From assembly GCA_022705745.1 (NCBI GenBank), contig JAKJDW010000010.1, forward strand, positions 1 through 37,179: a stretch of DNA of 37,179 bases, written 5' to 3'. The notes beneath the pieces are model-generated. The model was not told the origin of the DNA. It saw only the letters and a program-made list of their open reading frames with translations, and ran no database searches. How positions within the stretch are numbered: the stretch's first letter is position 1; each line of letters starts with the position of its first letter. A program made the position numbers and the translations under genes. Source of the DNA: Patescibacteria group bacterium. Lineage in GTDB: Bacteria; Patescibacteriota; Gracilibacteria; Absconditabacterales; Absconditicoccaceae. Shown piece after piece: positions 3,854-37,179 of the stretch.

Positions 3854-4858
3854 TTAGTACAGACTATATTTTCAAGGAGAATTTTGGTATATATGATTAT
3901 TTATTTCTAACAAAGTAATATGTTGCATAACAGTATCTGTATCCAAACCTGTAGCTTGCATAATAGCTCACAAAGACATTTCGCCATTGTCAGACAAAAG
4001 TCAAATAATATCACTTTGAGGAGCTGGTAAATCCAATATTTTTGTACTAACGGTATGTTTTACCCCAAATTTTTTGAAATTTTGATCAAAGAAATCCTTG
4101 AAATCAATTAAGACATTCGCTTTTTGTTGAGAAATTAGCTGATGCACTCCAAAACTAGTAAGAGAAAAAATATCGTTTGGAACAACATATACCGGTCTAC
4201 TTGAATGGTTGGCAAAATCAACTGTAATTAAACTTCAAGAATTTTCTCAAGCTTCCGGCAAAACAACTATATCAGACAAACCTGCTATAATACGATTTCT
4301 TTGCGGAAAACTATATTTTGTAGGTACGAAATTTATCTTGTATTCGGACAATACCAGTCATCCATTGTCCACTATAGATTGGACAATATGACGCTCTGCT
4401 CATTTCAAAAAATAATTTAGTCATCATCACAAAACAGCAATGGTGGGTATTTTGTGCTTGATAGAAAGCGCATGAGCCAGCTGATCTACTCAAGCTGCCA
4501 TGCCGGAAATAGTTACCAAATCATAGTTTTCAGCATGTTCAAAAAGCTTCTTTAAAACTTTATGAGAATAAACACTCGGCTTTCTAGGCCCAACTATCGC
4601 CAAAATATTTTTGTCCAATAAAGATAAATCTCATATGTAATGGACAATATATGGTTTGGATGGTATTGAATGAAACTTGTAATGATAATCATCTTGTCAC
4701 ATCATAAAAGCTCCGATATTGTGCTCTTGAAAAATACTTTGTATATTTTTTAGTTCAGATGCTGGAATATCATACTTATCAAAATCTCAAGATTTCAAAT
4801 CTCAAAAAGTAATATCAGGATGAGCAGAATACTTAATAATTTCAGGATGAATAGACAT
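3854..4858 (-). CDS. dprA: DNA-processing protein DprA
   Basis: Loads RecA onto incoming single-stranded DNA during natural transformation (cytoplasm). 334 aa. The Rossmann-like domain shows LAIVGPRKPS, TISGMAAGVDQLAHALS, AVLGGGLNYF, FPQRNRIIAGLSD and VVLPEAGENSGSLITVDFA, followed by VYVVPNDIFS. The C-terminal about 60 residues look like the winged-helix DML1-type domain (SDNGEMSLGAIMQATGLD). TGA codons sit on the conserved glycines. The frame passes a final TGA and ends at TAA 3854-3856, so the last residues are GKYSLY. Downstream on the same strand comes ftsK after a 118-base gap; upstream is a repeat block. It pairs functionally with comM and ssb in this window. Confidence 0.93.
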
Positions 4859-5334: not shown

Positions 5335-6729
5335 ATGTCTTTAGCCAACAAATATCGTCCGAATACATTTGATAAAATTATATGACAAGATCATATTACA
5401 CACATACTCAAAGCTCAAATGAAAAATGAGCAAAGGAACAACCACAACTATTTGCTTTTTGGACCTAGAGGTACTGGAAAAACTACAGCAGCTAGAATTT
5501 TGTCCAAAGCCATAAACTGTTTGGATCTACAAGATGGAAATCCTTGTAATCAATGTGCAAATTGTAGCACAATAAACAAATGACAAACTTTTGATTATGT
5601 AGAAATAGATGCAGCCAGCTACACAGGAGTAGACAATATTAGAGAAGAGATTTTAGACAAAGTACCATATCCTCCTACTCAACTAAAAAAGAAAATATAT
5701 GTAATAGATGAGGTACATATGCTCTCCAAGTCTGCATTCAATGCTCTTTTAAAAACCATAGAAGAGCCAAATAGTGCTGTTTGATTTATTTTTGCCACTA
5801 CAGAAATACACAAAGTCCCAGAAACAATAGTTTCTCGTTGCCAAGTGTTTAATTTCAAAAAAATTTTAAAAGAAACAATGACTCCTCATTTACAAAACAT
5901 TTGTAATTTAGAGTGACTATCTTTTGAAGATGAGGCATTAAATTTAATTTCAGACATATCTGAATGATGTGTAAGAGATGCCGTAAAGTATGTAGACCAA
6001 ATAAGCGTGTTTGGAAGCATTAGTATGGAAAATGTTAGCAATTTTTTGGGAATAGCTGGTGAAGCCATGATCAAAGATTTTTTGGAATTAATAAAGTCAA
6101 AAGATAGAGAAGCTATTTTCAAAAAAATAGACGAAATTCACGACCAATGAATAGACTTATTGCAATTTGCAAAACAAAACATTATGTACATAGACAAAAA
6201 TATAATGTCAGATATCGACTTTTTTATCTCTGTATCAGAAATTTTTTCAGAAATAATAGCAACAGCAAAATATTATCCATACCCTACTATCTTGTACAAA
6301 ATTGCGATAAATAAATTTTTATGACAAAACAATCAGGTCGTCAACTATCAGGAACCAGTAAAACAAGAAAACAAAATCAAAGAAAACAAAACAGAAGAAA
6401 GCGTCGTCACAGAAACTCCAATTTCAGAAGAAAAAAATCAAAACGAAGCACCAGGCGTAGAAAGCAAAGAGAAAGAAATTTTGAATCAGCTAATTGAAAA
6501 AGTAGAAAGCAAAACCTTAAAAGATAGTTTGAGAGACCACATATTTATAAAAAACATTTCAGACTGAAAAGCTTACTTTGTAGTAATAAATAAAATAGCA
6601 GAAATTGCTTTGAATAGAGATGATACAAAAAGTAATTTAGAAGAAATGATTTCCGAAATAGTATGAGAAAACATCACCATAGACATCCAATTTCAATCCA
6701 AAGAAGATTACTTTTCAAGTATACTATAA
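5335..6729 (+). CDS. dnaX: DNA polymerase III subunit gamma/tau
   Basis: AAA+ clamp-loader subunit of the replicase. 464 aa. The N-terminus matches the family ([19 protein letters not shown]). Walker [10 protein letters not shown] at 42-50; zinc-binding cysteines in the NCLD...CNQCANC segment (about 61-78); Walker B with VIDEVHMLS; sensor 1 [15 protein letters not shown] then the SRCQVF arginine finger block. Then a lid domain and a lysine/glutamate-rich tail (about 345-400) before a small C-terminal domain. Glycines at IIGQ, NKGQ, SAVGF and SEGC are TGA. Start ATG at 5335 is chosen because MSLANKYRP is canonical; an in-frame ATG at 5308 would add nine residues. Stop TAA. Confidence 0.95.
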
Positions 6730-9948: not shown

Positions 9949-10237
9949 TTTGTTAAAATATAATATAAATGTTTTTTTAATATACACTCAAACTATTTTA
10001 CTAATATAATTATAGTCCAAATTTTCATTTTTACCAAAAAAATGAATAAACATTTCAAATATTTTACCTACAAATATCAATTATAGTAAAAAAATATTTA
10101 CATATTAAAAAATTTACCATTTTTTGAAAACACTTAGTTATCAGCTCAACAATTTTTCAAAAAAAATCTCTATTGATTTTAGTAACAAAAGGAATATTGT
10201 TCAACAACAAAACATTTTTTACATTATACGATCTCAA
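9949..10237. other. AT-rich divergent intergenic region
   Basis: Separates the divergent coiled-coil (-) and methyltransferase (+) genes. Long A and T runs, no palindromes above about 8 bp, no supported gene. A promoter must exist here for each side but no convincing -35/-10 pair stands out. Confidence 0.4.
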
Positions 10238-10783: not shown

Positions 10784-10838
10784 AACAAAAAAAGAGAAAA
10801 CACTAAGACAAATAATTTATAATTTTCTCTTTTTTGTT
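10784..10838. terminator. bidirectional A/T-flanked hairpin terminator
   Basis: Left arm at 10784-10800 (AACAAAAAAAGAGAAAA) and right arm at 10823-10838 (TTTTCTCTTTTTTGTT) are complementary, giving a stem with A-rich and T-rich sides. It lies between the stop of the methyltransferase (10774) and the stop of the convergent FnIII-like gene (10847), as expected for a terminator serving both. Confidence 0.7.
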
Positions 10839-10846
10839 ATCTATTT

Positions 10847-11755
10847 TTAAGCTTTTCTTCTAACAATCTTGTACACAAGATATAATAGTATAGTTCAAAT
10901 AATTACAGCTAAAATATTTTCTTTTGGTCACACAACTACAGGCTTGATAGGCTTTGGTATGGTAGGCTCATCAGCTTTCTTTTCTGCTAAATAATTAAAT
11001 GTATAATTAACTTCTGTTCATCAATTATTTGGAATAAATTTTACAATATATTCTCAATCTCTTGTCAAAGTAAAAGTATACGATTCAGCCGACATATTAA
11101 TAGTGGTAAGTTTATTAAATGTCTCCTCTTTATCATCTCGCAAAAACAAATCTACAGTATTGCTACCATTTACTGCAATCCAGCTTAAAGTAACTTTATT
11201 ACCATCTATAGTATGCGATATATTTGCTAAACGCATATCTGCTCATGCAGCGTGCACACTTCCACATTCATCTCATGTTCAATAAAGTCTATCCTTCAAC
11301 CTAAAACACAATTCATTTGATACTTCTCATAAAGTATTAGCTGAATCTTTTGGTATAGATACCAAATAATAAATAATATTAGGATCTAAATTATCCGTTA
11401 CAGTCAACTCCATTGTAAAATGACTACTCGTTAAATTGAGATTTGTAAAATTTTTTTCTCTTGTAAGAGAAATTAATGCAGGATCTTCTATTAGTTGATT
11501 GAGAGTCTTTGGTCAATATAACAAGGTATAATCAGTAATTTTATCACCAAACTCATCTTTCAAAACTGGTGAATTTATCGTTATTGAATTAGATGTAATA
11601 GTTTTTACCGATATTTCATCAATATTCGGCCTATAACCAAATAATATATCATCTCAAATAGTATTTAAATAATCCAAAATACTATCAGAAAAAGAAATGC
11701 CAAACAAAGTAAGAGCAAAAGTGCATCACAAAACAAAGCTAACTAATTTTTTCAT
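10847..11755 (-). CDS. secreted, C-terminally anchored protein with FnIII-like domains
   Basis: 302 aa. An N-terminal signal peptide (MKKLVSFVLGCTFALTLFG) is followed by extracellular beta-rich sequence. Two fibronectin-III-like units can be traced: about residues 40-130 (ISVKTITSNSITINSP...YYLVSIPKDS) and about 170-255 (LANISHTIDGNKVTLSWIAVNG...YTFTLTRDGEYIVKFIP). Then a Pro/Lys stretch (TIPKPIKPVVVGPKEN) and a C-terminal membrane helix ILAVIIGTILLYLVYKIV ending in RRKA. The layout is that of a surface protein held by a membrane stop-transfer segment, with the basic tail inside; no LPXTG-type sorting motif is seen. TGA glycines throughout. Ligand unknown. Stop TAA; start ATG 11753-11755. Confidence 0.8.
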
Positions 11756-13347: not shown

Positions 13348-14886
13348 CTACCTCTCTACGAACATACTCTTACTCCTATATTGCATCGCTTCTGCTAAAT
13401 GCTTAATTTCTAAGCTTTCTACTCACTCCATATCAGCAATAGTCCTAGCAAGTTTGATGATCCTATGAACAACTCTAGGAGATAAAACTAATCTTTCTGA
13501 AGCTGTAGTCAAAAATTCCTTAATCTCATCAGACAATGGGATATATTTTTCAATATCATTACTACTCATATCAGAATTGGAAACTATATTTGTGCCAGCA
13601 AATCTTTTTTTCTGTATTTGCCGAGCCTTTATAATTTTTTCTCTAATAGACTGACTACTTTCTGATTTTACATTATCCAGTAATTTATCTATATTTTCTC
13701 TAGGAATTTCTAAAATCATATCTATCCTATCCATCAAAGGACCAGAAATTTTGTTTTGATAAATTTTGACTTCATTGATACTACAAGTACAAGCCCTTTC
13801 TGGATCTTTGTAATACCCACATTTACAAGGGTTCATACTTGCTACAAACATAAAATTTGCAGGATAATTGACACTACCAGATACTCTAGAAATACTAATA
13901 TTTTTATCCTCAATTGGCTGTCTAAGCACTTCCAATGTCTCTCTAGGAAACTCTGTAATTTCATCAAAAAACAAAACTCATTTATGTGCTAAGCTCACTT
14001 CTCATGGAGTTAAATTGGATCATCCTCAAACTATAGAAATTTTGGATGCCGTATGATGAACTTGTCTAAAAGGTCTTTGGACTATCAAAGGGTGATCTTT
14101 GTTTAATTTTCATACTACAGAATAAATCTGTGATACTTCCAAAATTTCTTGAAATCAAAGGGGCGGTAAAACACTTTTTAGAGCTTTACTCAACATAGTT
14201 TTCCCACTTCATGGAGCTCAAATCATAAAAACATTGTGTAATCCAGCAGCAGCGATAGATAATGCTCTTTTGGCTAAAATATGTCATTTGATATGTTCAA
14301 AATCTATCTCAAAATCATATTGAACATTGTACAAACTTTCTACATCTTTTGATTGAGAAACACACTGTAAATCTTTTCAATCTACGAAATATCAAACTAA
14401 TTGTAAAAAGTTATCCAAAGGATAAATAGTAATTCACGAAATATACTCTAACTCATATAAATTTTCACTTGGAACAAAAAAATCTTTGTATCATTTTTTG
14501 ATAGCAGAAATTACGGATGGAAGTAGTCAATTTACTCTTTTGATAGTACCGTCCAATCCCAACTCTCCAAAAAACAAATATTTTTCAAGATCTTTTTGGT
14601 GATGAACTCTTCATTCTTGTAAAAGAACCAATATAGCTACTGCCATAGAAAGATCAAAGGAAGTACCAACTTTTCTAATATCCGAAGGAGATAAATTTAA
14701 AACAAATCTTTTATTTGGTAAAATTATACCCACATTGCGAAAAGTGGCTCTGAGTCTTTCTTTGGACTCTTTGATAGCCGCATCTGGAAGTCAAATAATC
14801 TCTATCCCTGGTAAAGACTTGTTTGCATCTGCTTCTACTAAAATCTCGTAACCTTCTAGTCCAAGGTTTGTGAATGTTTTTGTCAT
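13348..14886 (-). CDS. comM: YifB/ComM family Mg-chelatase-like AAA ATPase
   Basis: 512 aa. ComM is a hexameric branch-migration helicase that helps integrate DNA taken up by transformation. N-terminal S5/Lon-like domain: TNLGLEGYEILVEADANKS, LPGIEIIGLPDAAIKESKER, VLNLSPSDIRKVG. AAA core: MIGAPGSGKTMLSKAL (Walker A near 222-230), VLFFDEITEFPRETLEVLRQP (Walker B), FMFVASMNPCKCGYY with the typical Cys cluster (CKCGYYKDPERACTCS), GPLMDRIDMILEIP. C-terminal helical MgCHLI_C domain: SPRVVHRIIKLARTIADMEG. Start ATG 14884-14886 (MTKTF) fits the family; in-frame ATGs at 14893 and 14971 would add 3 or 29 residues. Stop TAG. Confidence 0.92.
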
Positions 14887-15034
14887 TCGTACCATTTTCT
14901 TGTTCAAATAATAATTAAATATCAACTTTGAATTTCCCTTAGATTGAAATAATGTATATTTTTTATAATACAAAAATCAAGAGATTTTTTGACAAACAAG
15001 AAATGGGCCATCAAAAGCAAATATTGTAAAAATA

Positions 15035-19639: not shown

Positions 19640-20345
19640 TAACTCTATATTTTTAAAAGTTCTTTCGCTACATCAAAGTGGTTTATAAAGCTAGCCTACG
19701 GCGAGTTTATCAAGCCACAAGAAGTTATCAAGTTACAAGTTTATAAAGTTAAAAATTATAAAGTTAAAAGTTGCAAATAAAACATTCTTCCCTTGCGAAG
19801 CGAATCTTGTCGGGAGCGGGAAGTTGTTCTAGTGCTGCGTCCCGCAGTAGTGCGGGGTTGTTGGGGGTAAAACCCCCACCTAGTCCCTCATAAATTCGGG
19901 ACATTCAACCTCCCCCTAGGGAGGAACTTTATCATGAAATTCTTCCCTCGGGGGAAGTTGCTCCCCCGCAGTATTGCGGGGTAGTTGGGGGTTGTTGGGA
20001 GTTGTTGAGAACAAAAACCCCACCTCCCCAATGAAAGGAACTTTATCATAGAATTCTTCCCGCAGAAGAATATTGTAGTTGGGGCAATCATCCTACTCCA
20101 AAGAAAGAATCCTAATAGGGAACTTTATAAACTTTACGAACCCACCTACCCCGCCCGTAGGACTACGGGGCTGGAGCAGGCTTGATAAACTTTTAACTTA
20201 ATTATGCCCAGATGATGCTCCAAGATTGTGTTGATTTTACGAGCGAAGCGAGTAAAAATCAAGGACAAGATTGAAAGTCCCGCTGAATAGCGGGAGAATT
20301 GTTCCAAGATTGTTGATAAACCACGCGTAGCGCGGTAAACCACGA
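19640..20345. repeat. repeat-rich intergenic region
   Basis: No gene supported. Contents: AAGTTATAAAGTTAAAAG-type units (19676-19770); the 67-bp element 19860-19926, an exact inverted copy of 4994-5060; a direct-repeat element 19939-19993 containing GCAGTATTGCGGGGTAGTTGG, shared with 26001-26054; a CCCGTAGGACTACGGGGC palindrome near 20153; ATTATGCCCAGATGATG at about 20203-20218, a fragment of the tRNA-Leu 5' end; and CCACGCGTAGCGCGG hairpins from 20321 on. The GCGAAGCGA and GGCGAG motifs recur. The region looks like accumulated repeat insertions next to a tRNA. Confidence 0.8.
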
Positions 20346-20418
20346 GTAGCGTGGTAAAACTCAAAATCTGATAGATACAATTAAAAAAACATTATGCCCA
20401 GATGATGGAATTGGTAGA
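20346..20418 (+). repeat. 73-bp direct repeat, copy 1, with tRNA-Leu 5' fragment
   Basis: Identical to 20471-20543, 125 bases downstream. It contains an ACTCAAAATCTG segment that also occurs at the anticodon loop of the tRNA, an A-rich spacer, and then the first 22 bases of tRNA-Leu (20397-20418). After the repeat the tRNA-like sequence stops and a CCCAG-CTGTG-CTGGG hairpin (20423-20437) follows, so this copy cannot make a tRNA. Confidence 0.85.
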
Positions 20419-20470
20419 TTTACCCAGCTGTGCTGGGCATGCTATCCACGCGTAGCGCGGTAAACCACGC

Positions 20471-20543
20471 GTAGCGTGGTAAAACTCAAAATCTGATAGA
20501 TACAATTAAAAAAACATTATGCCCAGATGATGGAATTGGTAGA
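20471..20543 (+). repeat. 73-bp direct repeat, copy 2, running into functional tRNA-Leu
   Basis: Exact second copy of 20346-20418. Its last 23 bases are the 5' end of the intact tRNA-Leu gene. Upstream, the similarity extends with one mismatch through the CCACGCGTAGCGCGG hairpins (20444-20470 against 20319-20345). Confidence 0.85.
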
Positions 20544-20604
20544 CATGCTAGACTCAAAATCTGGTGGCTTCACGGCCATGTGGGTTCAACTCCCACTCTG
20601 GGCA
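20521..20604 (+). tRNA. tRNA-Leu (anticodon CAA)
   Basis: Class II tRNA, 84 bases without encoded CCA. Acceptor arms GCCCAGA (20521-20527) and TCTGGGC, discriminator A at 20604. D-arm region TGGAATTGGTAGACA. Anticodon stem CTAGA/TCTGG around loop CTCAAAA, which places CAA at positions 34-36. Variable arm TGGC-TTCACG-GCCA. T-arm GTGGG-TTCAACT-CCCAC. The long variable arm and loop sequence match bacterial leucine tRNAs. Confidence 0.95.
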
Positions 20605-20618
20605 AATTATTTAAAATC

Positions 20619-34189: not shown

Positions 34190-34195
34190 TATAAT
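34190..34195 (+). promoter_or_regulatory. candidate -10 box before rsmA
   Basis: A consensus TATAAT stands 31 bases before the rsmA start. No good -35 lies 16-18 bases upstream (a T-run is there instead), so the assignment is weak. Confidence 0.3.
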
Positions 34196-34226
34196 GATTA
34201 CATATTTTATTTATGAACAAGTTTTG

Positions 34227-35000
34227 ATGGGAACACATCTTTGACAAAATTTTTTGATAGATACCAAAGTCCAAAGCTACATAGCAGATAAGATCAGCAA
34301 AATCTACAAAAAAAACAATCTAGAAGCAATTATTGAAATCGGCCCCGGAAAATGAGCTATCACAAAAAAAATTTATCAAATTTCTAATAATTTTTGTGTA
34401 ATAGAAAAAGATCCCACTATGAAAGAACATCTGGATAAAATTCTATCCAAAGAACAAATAAATTTTGCTGATGTTTTAGAAGAAAATATTGAAAACAAAT
34501 TAAAAAACATAAATCCAAAAAAAACTTTAATTGTAGGGAACTTACCATATTACATCACTTCTCCAATTTTCAGGAAATTTTTTGGAAATGGGAAACAAGA
34601 GTTTTTTGGGGGATTTTTTATGATTCAAGACGAAGTAGGAGAAAAAATAAAGACTGATAGCAAAAAAAAATCATTCCTTTGGTGGTTGGTAAACTACGCT
34701 TACGATATTATATATTGGAAAACTGTTTGAGCAAAATCCTTCAATCCAGCACCAAAAGTAAAATCTTGTTTAGTAGAATTTAGAATAAAAACAGAAAAAA
34801 TAGGTTTAGATTTTGATAAATTGTTAGAATTTTTGGACTTATATGCTCCTTTTAGTAGAAAAACATTATGAGCAATAGAAAAAATCTTAATCAAACAGAA
34901 TAAAAAAACATTTTCCATACCGGAAGACTTAAAAAAACATAGATTAGAAGAATTGAATTGGAATAATCTGAAAAATATTATAAACAAATCGCATAATTAA
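34227..35000 (+). CDS. rsmA: 16S rRNA (adenine1518/1519-N6) dimethyltransferase
   Basis: KsgA/RsmA, which dimethylates two adenines in helix 45 of 16S rRNA. 257 aa. MGTHLGQNFLIDTKVQSYIADKI (family LGQ.FL.D), motif I AIIEIGPGKGAITKKI, acidic motif VIEKDPTMKEHL, motif IV TLIVGNLPYYITSPIFRKF, then FFMIQDEVGEKI and a C-terminal helical domain FNPAPKVKSCLVEF...YAPFSRKTLGAIEKIL. The ATG at 34213 is out of frame with the family; ATG 34227 gives the canonical N-terminus. The last 31 codons start with a 54-bp stretch repeated exactly at 36677-36730. Ends SHN at TAA; a terminator follows. Confidence 0.94.
34905..34958 (+). repeat. 54-bp direct repeat in rsmA 3' end, copy 1
   Basis: Codes in the rsmA frame for KTFSIPEDLKKHRLEELN. 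Identical to 36677-36730, 1772 bases away. After the repeat the two ends differ but stay related in protein (this copy: WNNLKNIINKSHN then stop; other copy: QTDIIQIINT then stop). Confidence 0.95.
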
Positions 35001-35009
35001 CATTTAAAA

Positions 35010-35033
35010 AAGGCCGATAAAAATATCGACCTT
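35010..35033. terminator. bidirectional terminator between rsmA and the UGA-free gene
   Basis: AAGGCCGATA (35010-35019), loop AAAA, TATCGACCTT (35024-35033) with one mismatch (GU-tolerant on one strand). A-rich on one side and TTATGTTTT on the other. Serves rsmA and, on the minus strand, the gene ending at 35039. Confidence 0.7.
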
Positions 35034-35038
35034 ATGTT

Positions 35039-35632
35039 TTAACACATAACTTCATATTCTAAATTTTTACAAATTCCCAATTTGGGAACTTGCACATCAA
35101 AACTAAAGAGAAAAGAGGGTCTTTCAGGGTAATTATCATATTTTACATCATTTAGTGTGTATATGAACCCATCTTTTTTCACTACAATTCTCCTAGTAAA
35201 AGTGATACGAAAACCAGCCCAAAGAAATGCCTGATACCAATTAGAATGGTATTCAAGCTTACAACTCTTTATAAAATCATCATCACTCATCTGTATCTCA
35301 AAATTATCACGAGCTATATTCACCATATCAGTTAAAAATGTTTTTTTAGCAAATAATCGTGATGGTTCATCTAATTCTGATTCTATAAAACACCACCTTA
35401 TGAGTGCTTCAAGTATCAGTCCTATAAAGAGACCAACGCTCCCACAACAAACATAAAGAAGAATTTTTTCACAGACACGAGGAACATTATCAGAAAAAAA
35501 TAGAGCACTTCCCAAAACACACAATAAAGGGAAAATAAGTAGGAATATAGTACGATTCAAGCGAAGACGAAATGATACCTTGCCAACTAAAGCCTTATTT
35601 TCCTCTTCAAACATTTTTGCATAATTTTTCAT
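35039..35632 (-). CDS. hypothetical membrane protein lacking UGA codons
   Basis: 197 aa, not recognised. After MKNYAKMFEEENKALVGKVSFRLRLNR come two hydrophobic helices: about 29-47 (IFLLIFPLLCVLGSALFF) and 55-80 (CEKILLYVCCGSVGLFIGLILEALI). The soluble C-terminal 110 residues have mixed alpha/beta sequence (MVNIARDNFEIQMSDDDFI, FRITFTRRIVVKKDGFIYTLND). All eight glycines are GGN and its tryptophans are TGG; no in-frame TGA. It shares its layout (two close helices, soluble tail, private terminator) with the gene at 15075 but little sequence likeness. It lies divergent to the TrmB-like gene inside the rsmA duplication. Stop TAA; start ATG 35630-35632. Confidence 0.75.
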   Translation of the reverse strand: MKNYAKMFEEENKALVGKVSFRLRLNRTIFLLIFPLLCVLGSALFFSDNVPRVCEKILLYVCCGSVGLFIGLILEALIRWCFIESELDEPSRLFAKKTFLTDMVNIARDNFEIQMSDDDFIKSCKLEYHSNWYQAFLWAGFRITFTRRIVVKKDGFIYTLNDVKYDNYPERPSFLFSFDVQVPKLGICKNLEYEVMC

Positions 35633-35821
35633 AACTATAATTTTTTTGTTTCTGCTTACTTATAGGCATCAGCTTTCCTATTTTTATTTTTATTTTATAA
35701 TCATAATACCCATAACACACAATAAGTCAATTCGCTTTAACAAAAACATATTTAGAAAGAAAACCCACTTTATTTAAGCAATCTTAAACAAATAAAAAAT
35801 GTTATATTTAATTAACAAAAC

Positions 35822-35849
35822 TTGACTTTATAAAATATTTTAATATGCT
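35822..35849 (+). promoter_or_regulatory. candidate promoter of the TrmB-like gene
   Basis: TTGACT (35822-35827), a 16-base spacer and TATGCT (35844-35849), 33 bases before the ATG. The -10 is imperfect. It lies in the 249-base divergent region shared with the UGA-free membrane gene. Confidence 0.35.
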
Positions 35850-35881
35850 AACACCATATTTATTTAATAAAGAACATATTT

Positions 35882-36667
35882 ATGAATAAATCATATGATC
35901 GAAAATTAATAGAAATATTGGAGAATTTAGGACTGCATAAATCCGAGGCAAAAGTTTTTATAACATGATTACAAATAGGCGCAGCTAGTATTCAAGACCT
36001 CTCCAAATTCGCCAATATCAATCGTATTACCACACATGTAATAGTAAACAAACTAATAGAAAAAAAACTTTTCTTAGAAACAAGATCTGGAAAAAAAAGA
36101 TTAGTTTATCCAAATAAAATAGACATTTTAAATACATTATTACAAGAAAAAAAAATTGAACTCAACAAGGTTGAACATGACATTCAGTCCATAAAATCAA
36201 TAATGAATCTAATTCAAATCAAAAAGGACACCTATCCCAAAATCAGATTTTTTGAATGACGAGAGTGAATCATCCAAATGTTAAAAGAAGTTATTAGGGA
36301 CAAACAAGATATGTTTGGAATATCCAACAATTCTTTTGGATGATTTTTCAACATTGAAATCACAAAAAAATCCTATGAAAAAAGAATTCCTATGGGAATA
36401 AAAACAAAACTAATCTTAGAGCCATGATTTAATGATATCCGATATAATGACAAAAAGAAAAGCAAATATCTAATAGAAATACGTCTTTTAAAGCAAAATG
36501 GAATGTTTGATTGATGAATAAATGTATGGGGAAATAAAGTTGCTCTACATTCTTATAAAGTAAACTCTGTAATTACTACAATAATTGAAAATCCAGAAAT
36601 AGCAAAAATGATAAAATTTTTGTTTAACACTTTACGAGCAGAATCTACAGAATATGTGAAAAAATAA
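35882..36667 (+). CDS. TrmB-like transcriptional regulator
   Basis: 261 aa. N-terminal winged helix-turn-helix: YDRKLIEILENLGLHKSEAKVFITGLQIGAASIQDLSKFANINRITTHVIVNKLIEKKLF, as in TrmB/PadR-like regulators. Then a helical linker (LQEKKIELNKVEHDIQSIKSI) and a sensor-like C-terminal domain: PKIRFFEGREGIIQMLKEVIRDKQDMFGISN, typical of the TrmB family C-terminal region seen in many CPR genomes, ending FLFNTLRAESTEY. Uses TGA for several glycines, in contrast to the divergent neighbour, so it belongs to this code. Start ATG 35882; stop TAA. Confidence 0.78.
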
Positions 36668-36676
36668 AAAACAATT

Positions 36677-36763
36677 AAAACATTTTCCATACCGGAAGAC
36701 TTAAAAAAACATAGATTAGAAGAATTGAATCAAACTGATATCATACAAATTATAAATACCTAA
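36677..36763 (+). pseudogene. duplicated 3' end of rsmA
   Basis: Twenty-eight codons in the rsmA frame: KTFSIPEDLKKHRLEELN, encoded by the exact 54-bp copy, then QTDIIQIINT and TAA. No start or upstream rsmA sequence. Either the displaced original end of rsmA after an insertion brought in a new end, or a local duplication. Confidence 0.85.
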
Positions 36764-36822
36764 AACATAAAACCAAATTTTCTATCTATAATAATCTTTC
36801 AAAAACACTTGACAAACATGTA

Positions 36823-36839
36823 TTAATTGCTGCAATTAA
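36823..36839. promoter_or_regulatory. palindrome before the terminal transposase gene
   Basis: TTAATTGC-T-GCAATTAA, perfect 8-base arms around one base, with TTGACA just upstream (36809-36814) and TATAAT at 36861-36866. The -35/-10 distance (46) is too long for one promoter, so this may be an element end or an operator. Confidence 0.35.
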
Positions 36840-36899
36840 GTTCGTTTTTTAAGAAATGAGTATAATTAGATTAGTTTTTATATACTAATCAATACTCAG

Positions 36900-37179
36900 A
36901 TGATATGATTTGATAGTGAAGATATCAGAGAAAAACTGATACAAGATGTAGCAGAAAAGAGAAGAAAGACAAAGGAAGTATCACATCTCCTGTGAATAGG
37001 AATAAGAGCTGTACAGAAACAGGTATGGAGGTACAAACATTATGGGAGAGAGGGGATAATGCGCAAGAAACCATGACCTAAAGCATGAAGTTCATATAAT
37101 AGAACACCAAAAGAGATAGAAGAGATAGTGTGTCTATATGGGTTGAAATATAAGAGAGAATGACCACAAAGACTAAAAC
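36900..37179 (+). mobile_element. transposase N-terminus, IS481/IS3-like (cut by window edge)
   Basis: Open frame from ATG 36900 to the right edge. Helix-turn-helix region VAEKRRKTKEVSHLLGIGIRAVQKQVWRYKHYGREG, then KKPGPKAGSSYNRTPKEIEEIVCLYGLKYKREGPQRLK, which follows the pattern of integrase-type transposases (GRP...LT..E...I..L......GP..L). TGA is read as glycine at LLGIG, KPGPKAG and REGPQ. The catalytic rve domain would be beyond the edge. IS481 is preferred to IS630 because of the GPQRLK block. Confidence 0.7.

Follow-up and report, generated by a model that had tools for sequence, protein, structure and literature searches.

The 3′ end of rsmA in the DNA stretch analysed here (37,179 nucleotides, hereafter the window) is present twice, as an exact 54-bp direct repeat that brackets a small two-gene module, and this locus is best explained, with a probability of about one half, by a one-time insertion that homology guided to the end of rsmA. 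According to this reading, the module, a membrane gene and a divergent gene for a TrmB-like regulator, would have been acquired horizontally and would have joined the chromosome via rsmA 3′-end homology. The incoming DNA would have supplied a new rsmA ending (tail A) and thereby kept the gene whole, and the recipient's original ending (the 54 bp followed by tail B) would now lie beyond the module. What can be observed directly is the repeat, two RsmA-like tails, an abrupt boundary of identity, the foreign affinity of the module, and a set of competence genes.

The two repeat copies, at 34905-34958 and 36677-36730 on the plus strand, are identical at 54/54 positions, as had been claimed in the original prediction. 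Their ungapped alignment extends to 80 bp at 88% identity, and the longest exact repeat arising by chance in 20 order-1 Markov copies of the window measured 15-18 bp. The left copy encodes RsmA residues 226-243 (counted from codon 34230) and continues in frame into tail A (WNNLKNIINKSHN; 34959-35000), whose stop at 35000 closes a full frame of 268 codons (34194-35000, plus strand) for the 16S rRNA dimethyladenosine transferase RsmA (PF00398, E 4e-34), with a probable N-terminal start at or near 34227. This frame is read with UGA as glycine, the codon accounting for 358 of the 640 glycines in the annotated frames of the window. The right copy starts 9 bp behind the trmB stop and continues in frame, with no rsmA body upstream, into tail B (QTDIIQIINT; 36731-36763), which has its own stop at 36763. 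The presumably displaced rsmA ending sits 1.8 kb from the intact gene, with a module of 1.77 kb between. The left boundary falls within homologous rsmA, the right joint being that 9 bp past trmB. An rsmA paralogue, which had been considered as another source of the fragment, is absent, rsmA being single in the genome.

Both tails were scored against a profile built from 34 RsmA tails of the family, which typically show RLEEL, then W or R, and then a hydrophobic helix of about 10 residues, with random in-frame genome sequence serving as the null. Tail A, which is homologous to the C-termini of RsmA in relatives, scored with P = 7e-5, and tail B with P = 9e-4, inside the spread of real RsmA tails. 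Judged by these scores, the two are probably genuine ends of RsmA, with less certainty for tail B, whose resemblance is modest, and the earlier view of two distinct but related C-termini with their own stops is borne out. Across the core boundary, identity between the two copies falls from 54/54 to 18/33 (Fisher P = 4e-8), an abruptness that rules out plain duplication followed by drift. It can instead be reconciled with recombination between two rsmA alleles, or with a core kept identical by its use as a site; 54 perfect base pairs beside diverged tails require either re-copied recipient sequence or the latter, which would favour an integrase. RsmA residues 1-225 are closest to those of G001, the sole other genome of the genus (156/225 identical), while the core matches G001 at 6/18 residues versus 13/18 for G016; because the RsmA C-terminus of G001 itself deviates from the family pattern, no conclusion is drawn from this mismatch.

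Between the repeats lie a hairpin terminator, the minus-strand membrane gene and the divergent plus-strand TrmB-like gene, with no further gene present, so that the predicted content of the module, including the absence of an integrase inside it, agrees with our analysis. The terminator (35010-35033, z = -3.6) lies where rsmA and the membrane gene converge; a 27-bp segment 96% alike is found behind the membrane-gene homologue of G033. As it has only one copy in the genome, it was rejected as a shared recombination site. The membrane gene (35039-35632, minus strand, 197 aa) encodes none of its 8 glycines by UGA (P 0.001-0.002), and its one recognisable homologue, in G033 (30% amino acid identity), is likewise UGA-free. 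Profile searches gave no family match for the protein, none was found in phages or plasmids, and a scan of the genome collection with the two-sequence membrane alignment returned nothing beyond the known G033 genome. The predicted structure had a mean pLDDT of 53, which made it unusable for a fold search.

The regulator (35882-36667, plus strand, 261 aa, 7 UGA-encoded glycines) scores 22.0 bits against PF01978 (E 1e-4), just under the cut-off of 25.6, and matches NF047390 with E 2e-6, far below the TrmBL1 equivalog cut-off. As in the TrmB family (PF01978, TrmBL1-like), it combines an HTH domain with an orientation divergent from its presumed target and a palindromic candidate site in the shared promoter; unlike in that family, apart from the sub-threshold score, the presumed target is an orphan membrane gene rather than a sugar operon. 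The protein is 71-72% identical to its counterpart in G031, which belongs to another genus, compared with 51-55% for well-covered orthologues including RsmA (four further weak or partial matches being lower than that range); for core proteins of the two genomes the figure is 51-56%. Furthermore, this similarity spans the entire divergent promoter region (35703-35849), comprising AAAATGTTA-N8-TAACAAAA and flanking TTGAC/TTGAT boxes. The promoter elements are TTGACT-16-TATTAT on the minus strand (35730-35703) and TTGACT at 35822 on the plus strand, and the region contains an inverted repeat, TGTTA-N8-TAACA, that is kept in G031 (L085 6494-6790) despite a different cargo gene. Likely, the TrmB-like protein controls both itself and the divergent membrane gene via this putative site, which lies within the candidate operator AATGTTATATTTAATTAACAAA (35798-35819, plus strand), itself conserved in the G031 alignment. 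The exact operator motif occurs once in the genome, and as a regulon marker it was discarded, since near matches were no commoner than in a reversed control. A similar motif with a spacer of 9 precedes trmB in G009.

In G031, trmB is located between pcrA, 17-25 bp from its end, and a CoA-binding gene, with UGA-free genes on its other side; in the genome studied here, pcrA is followed by a Y1-transposase gene and then by that CoA-binding gene. Homologues of trmB at this level (E < 1e-30) were detected in 5 of 49 family genomes, including this one, and were absent at that similarity from the other 44, G001 among them. G009 carries a 32% identical homologue directly at the rsmA 3′ end, in opposite orientation and without a duplicated tail. 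No relatives of either module gene were found in viral contigs. The outlier similarity of trmB, its different locus in G031, its patchy distribution and the UGA-free membrane gene make the module look horizontally acquired, that is, foreign or mobile. In addition, trmB homologues of G009, G071 and G064 (L086, L139 and L140) adjoin arrays in which paralogues of about 500 aa follow one another in tandem.

Gene integration at a 3′ end with restoration of the interrupted gene is a known kind of event, exemplified by restoring islands and prophages such as SCC elements at rlmH, SGI1 at trmE/mnmE, and the icd and guaA islands. Our locus resembles islands of the SCC/SGI1 type in its direct repeat derived from a gene 3′ end, in the intact frame next to the element, in the displaced original end on the far side, and in the foreign cargo. 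It differs from them in that there is no integrase or ccr-type recombinase, the module has only 1.77 kb, the core is not reused in relatives, and the target is rsmA. A literature search for rsmA/ksgA as a known integration site found nothing, one paper having ksgA as prophage cargo; a paper on BD1-5 hypervariation concerns a repeat gene and is unrelated. Unusual here are the small size, the absence of any enzyme, the choice of rsmA as target, and the pairing of exchangeable cargo with a regulator and promoter that are conserved.

Either a single crossover with a circle or a one-sided homologous join with an illegitimate second joint would leave the whole gene with tail A, the cargo, the 54 bp and tail B in this order, and so would an integrase acting on an attachment core. 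The latter, a non-autonomous integrative element using the rsmA 3′ end as its core and mobilized in trans by a Xer or a plasmid- or phage-borne integrase, is a tentative alternative that we regard as possible. The classic geometry with a restored frame and two tails speaks for it, as do the perfectly identical core and the position of module genes or homologues at other gene ends (pcrA in G031, rsmA in G009). However, no integrase lies in or beside the module, and the genome has a single Xer-like tyrosine recombinase (PF00589, contig C3) and a single small resolvase (PF00239, contig C11), large serine integrases having been covered solely through the PF00239 domain. The core, moreover, occurs just twice in the genome, with no third copy, and is absent from viral contigs; the proposed look for it at other cargo modules gave nothing. 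Among about 42 rsmA loci scanned in relatives, no duplicated rsmA tail was found, and neither an empty site nor a donor locus was detected, contrary to the empty site that the comparison had been proposed to reveal; no relative uses the rsmA end in this way, and the loci of G031 and G009 have no duplicated gene tail. Hence, the original idea of an integrated element is supported in part: the geometry, the RsmA-like tails, the lack of a paralogue and the foreign or mobile cargo stand, but an element with an attachment site stays hypothetical, given the missing integrase and the unused core. An extension of the same idea seems to us quite doubtful. In it, a very small cassette of these UGA-as-glycine bacteria, devoid of an integrase, would keep its TrmB-like regulator and bidirectional promoter constant while exchanging UGA-free (standard-code) membrane genes; mobilized in trans, it would enter conserved genes at their 3′ termini and restore them (rsmA; pcrA in G031; beside rsmA in G009).

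We consider it unlikely that the arrangement arose inside the genome, by a partial tandem duplication at the end of rsmA, one tail of which was subsequently converted or replaced while the module had long resided downstream. The genome does contain other local gene-end duplications and tandem paralogues with one identical half, yet duplication with drift does not account for the step in identity at the core boundary, both tails are RsmA-like, and similarity as well as codon use mark the module as foreign. Still less credible is an assembly artefact in which two strain variants of the rsmA end were merged in one contig, although the feature lies near a contig end in a fragmented draft (66 contigs, 1,056 kb, 94% complete, estimated contamination 2.9%). 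Contig ends of this assembly repeatedly overlap by 77 bp in an end-overlap comparison, which indicates a final assembly word of 77, and single words therefore span the 54-bp repeat, which was read through directly and is no typical k-mer artefact; an overlap artefact of the form 54 = 55 - 1 is thereby ruled out as well. The joint between trmB and the rsmA fragment also lacks a long overlap able to create it.

Homology-guided insertion is ranked above an integrase on account of the missing module integrase, the few recombinases, the lack of core reuse, and the presence of ComEC, DprA and ComM. ComEC is recognized by PF03772 (E 1.5e-36), and dprA (3854-4858) and comM (13348-14973) lie in the window, both named from their translations. 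Homologous recombination, a secondary option in the original prediction, thus moves to first place. From this constellation we infer that tail A came from the donor, and also which way the event ran and by what pathway: recA-type recombination could have inserted a circular molecule through one crossover, or alternatively a homologous join at one end could have been combined with an illegitimate join or a template switch-back at the other, plausibly after DNA uptake. The second of these, homology-facilitated illegitimate recombination (HFIR), is an established route in competent bacteria (PMC3240628). The present locus would share with HFIR in naturally transformable bacteria a homologous anchor confined to one end, the additive foreign DNA and the independence of a dedicated enzyme, ComEC, DprA and ComM being encoded; the illegitimate joint is putative here.

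Comparable duplications occur elsewhere in this genome (G000), as seen when it was read in stretches (about 630 kb, with some overlap, of 1,056 kb; within contigs C25-C47 only C33 and C44 were covered). In one (L148, contig C6 of G000), a CopG-type antitoxin gene has its 3′ end duplicated in truncated form over 158 exact base pairs (4142-4299 and 6270-6427), the copy sitting behind two genes, one of 74 aa and a SIR2-like one of 478 aa, which is the rsmA geometry with another sequence. In another (L154, contig C12 of G000), two hicB-like genes with different N-termini have an identical 3′ end and downstream region (129 bp; 9985-10113 and 10830-10958) with a hicA-like gene between them. Both repeats are longer than the assembly word and hence less secure. 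Since these duplicated gene 3′ ends around small cargo differ in sequence, general recombination is favoured over a dedicated site; comparable truncated 5′ ends were hardly seen. Tandem paralogues with one identical half also belong to the repertoire of the genome. In G001, of the same genus, direct copies of a repeat of about 140 bp flank rsmA, followed by two UGA-free Bacteroidota-like genes (L088 4789-7192); foreign genes may use the stretch downstream of rsmA as a landing site in this genus.

The locus offers a concrete case of how a bacterium of a lineage with few detected enzymes dedicated to integration might add foreign genes without breaking an essential gene, and the conserved regulator and promoter beside exchangeable UGA-free cargo suggest local control of standard-code genes after transfer. 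Across 580 kb, 13 UGA-free frames with at least 4 glycines were counted versus 0.9 expected, about 10 of which look like genes and a few of which are repeat-derived, so that gene import from standard-code organisms seems general in this genome. Among long UGA-free genes, one of 1054 aa (0/47 glycines as UGA; L147 4414-7578, contig C5 of G000) and one aquaporin-like gene of 225 aa (0/30; L153 7349-8026, contig C11 of G000) are probable recent imports, since UGA encodes over half of the glycines in this genome.

Shortly after the module, the contig ends inside an insertion sequence, whose left end with an HTH transposase (36820-37179, plus strand) recurs at both ends of contig C4 and which is probably a later, separate insertion. 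TTGAC and about 5 bases precede all three copies (window 36809-36820 and the C4 contig ends), as if the insertion sequence targeted or completed a promoter -35 box. Elsewhere in the window, a 98-bp direct repeat (20321-20418 and 20446-20543, 99% identical) places a second copy of the initial 24 nt of tRNA-Leu (20520-20605) ahead of that gene.
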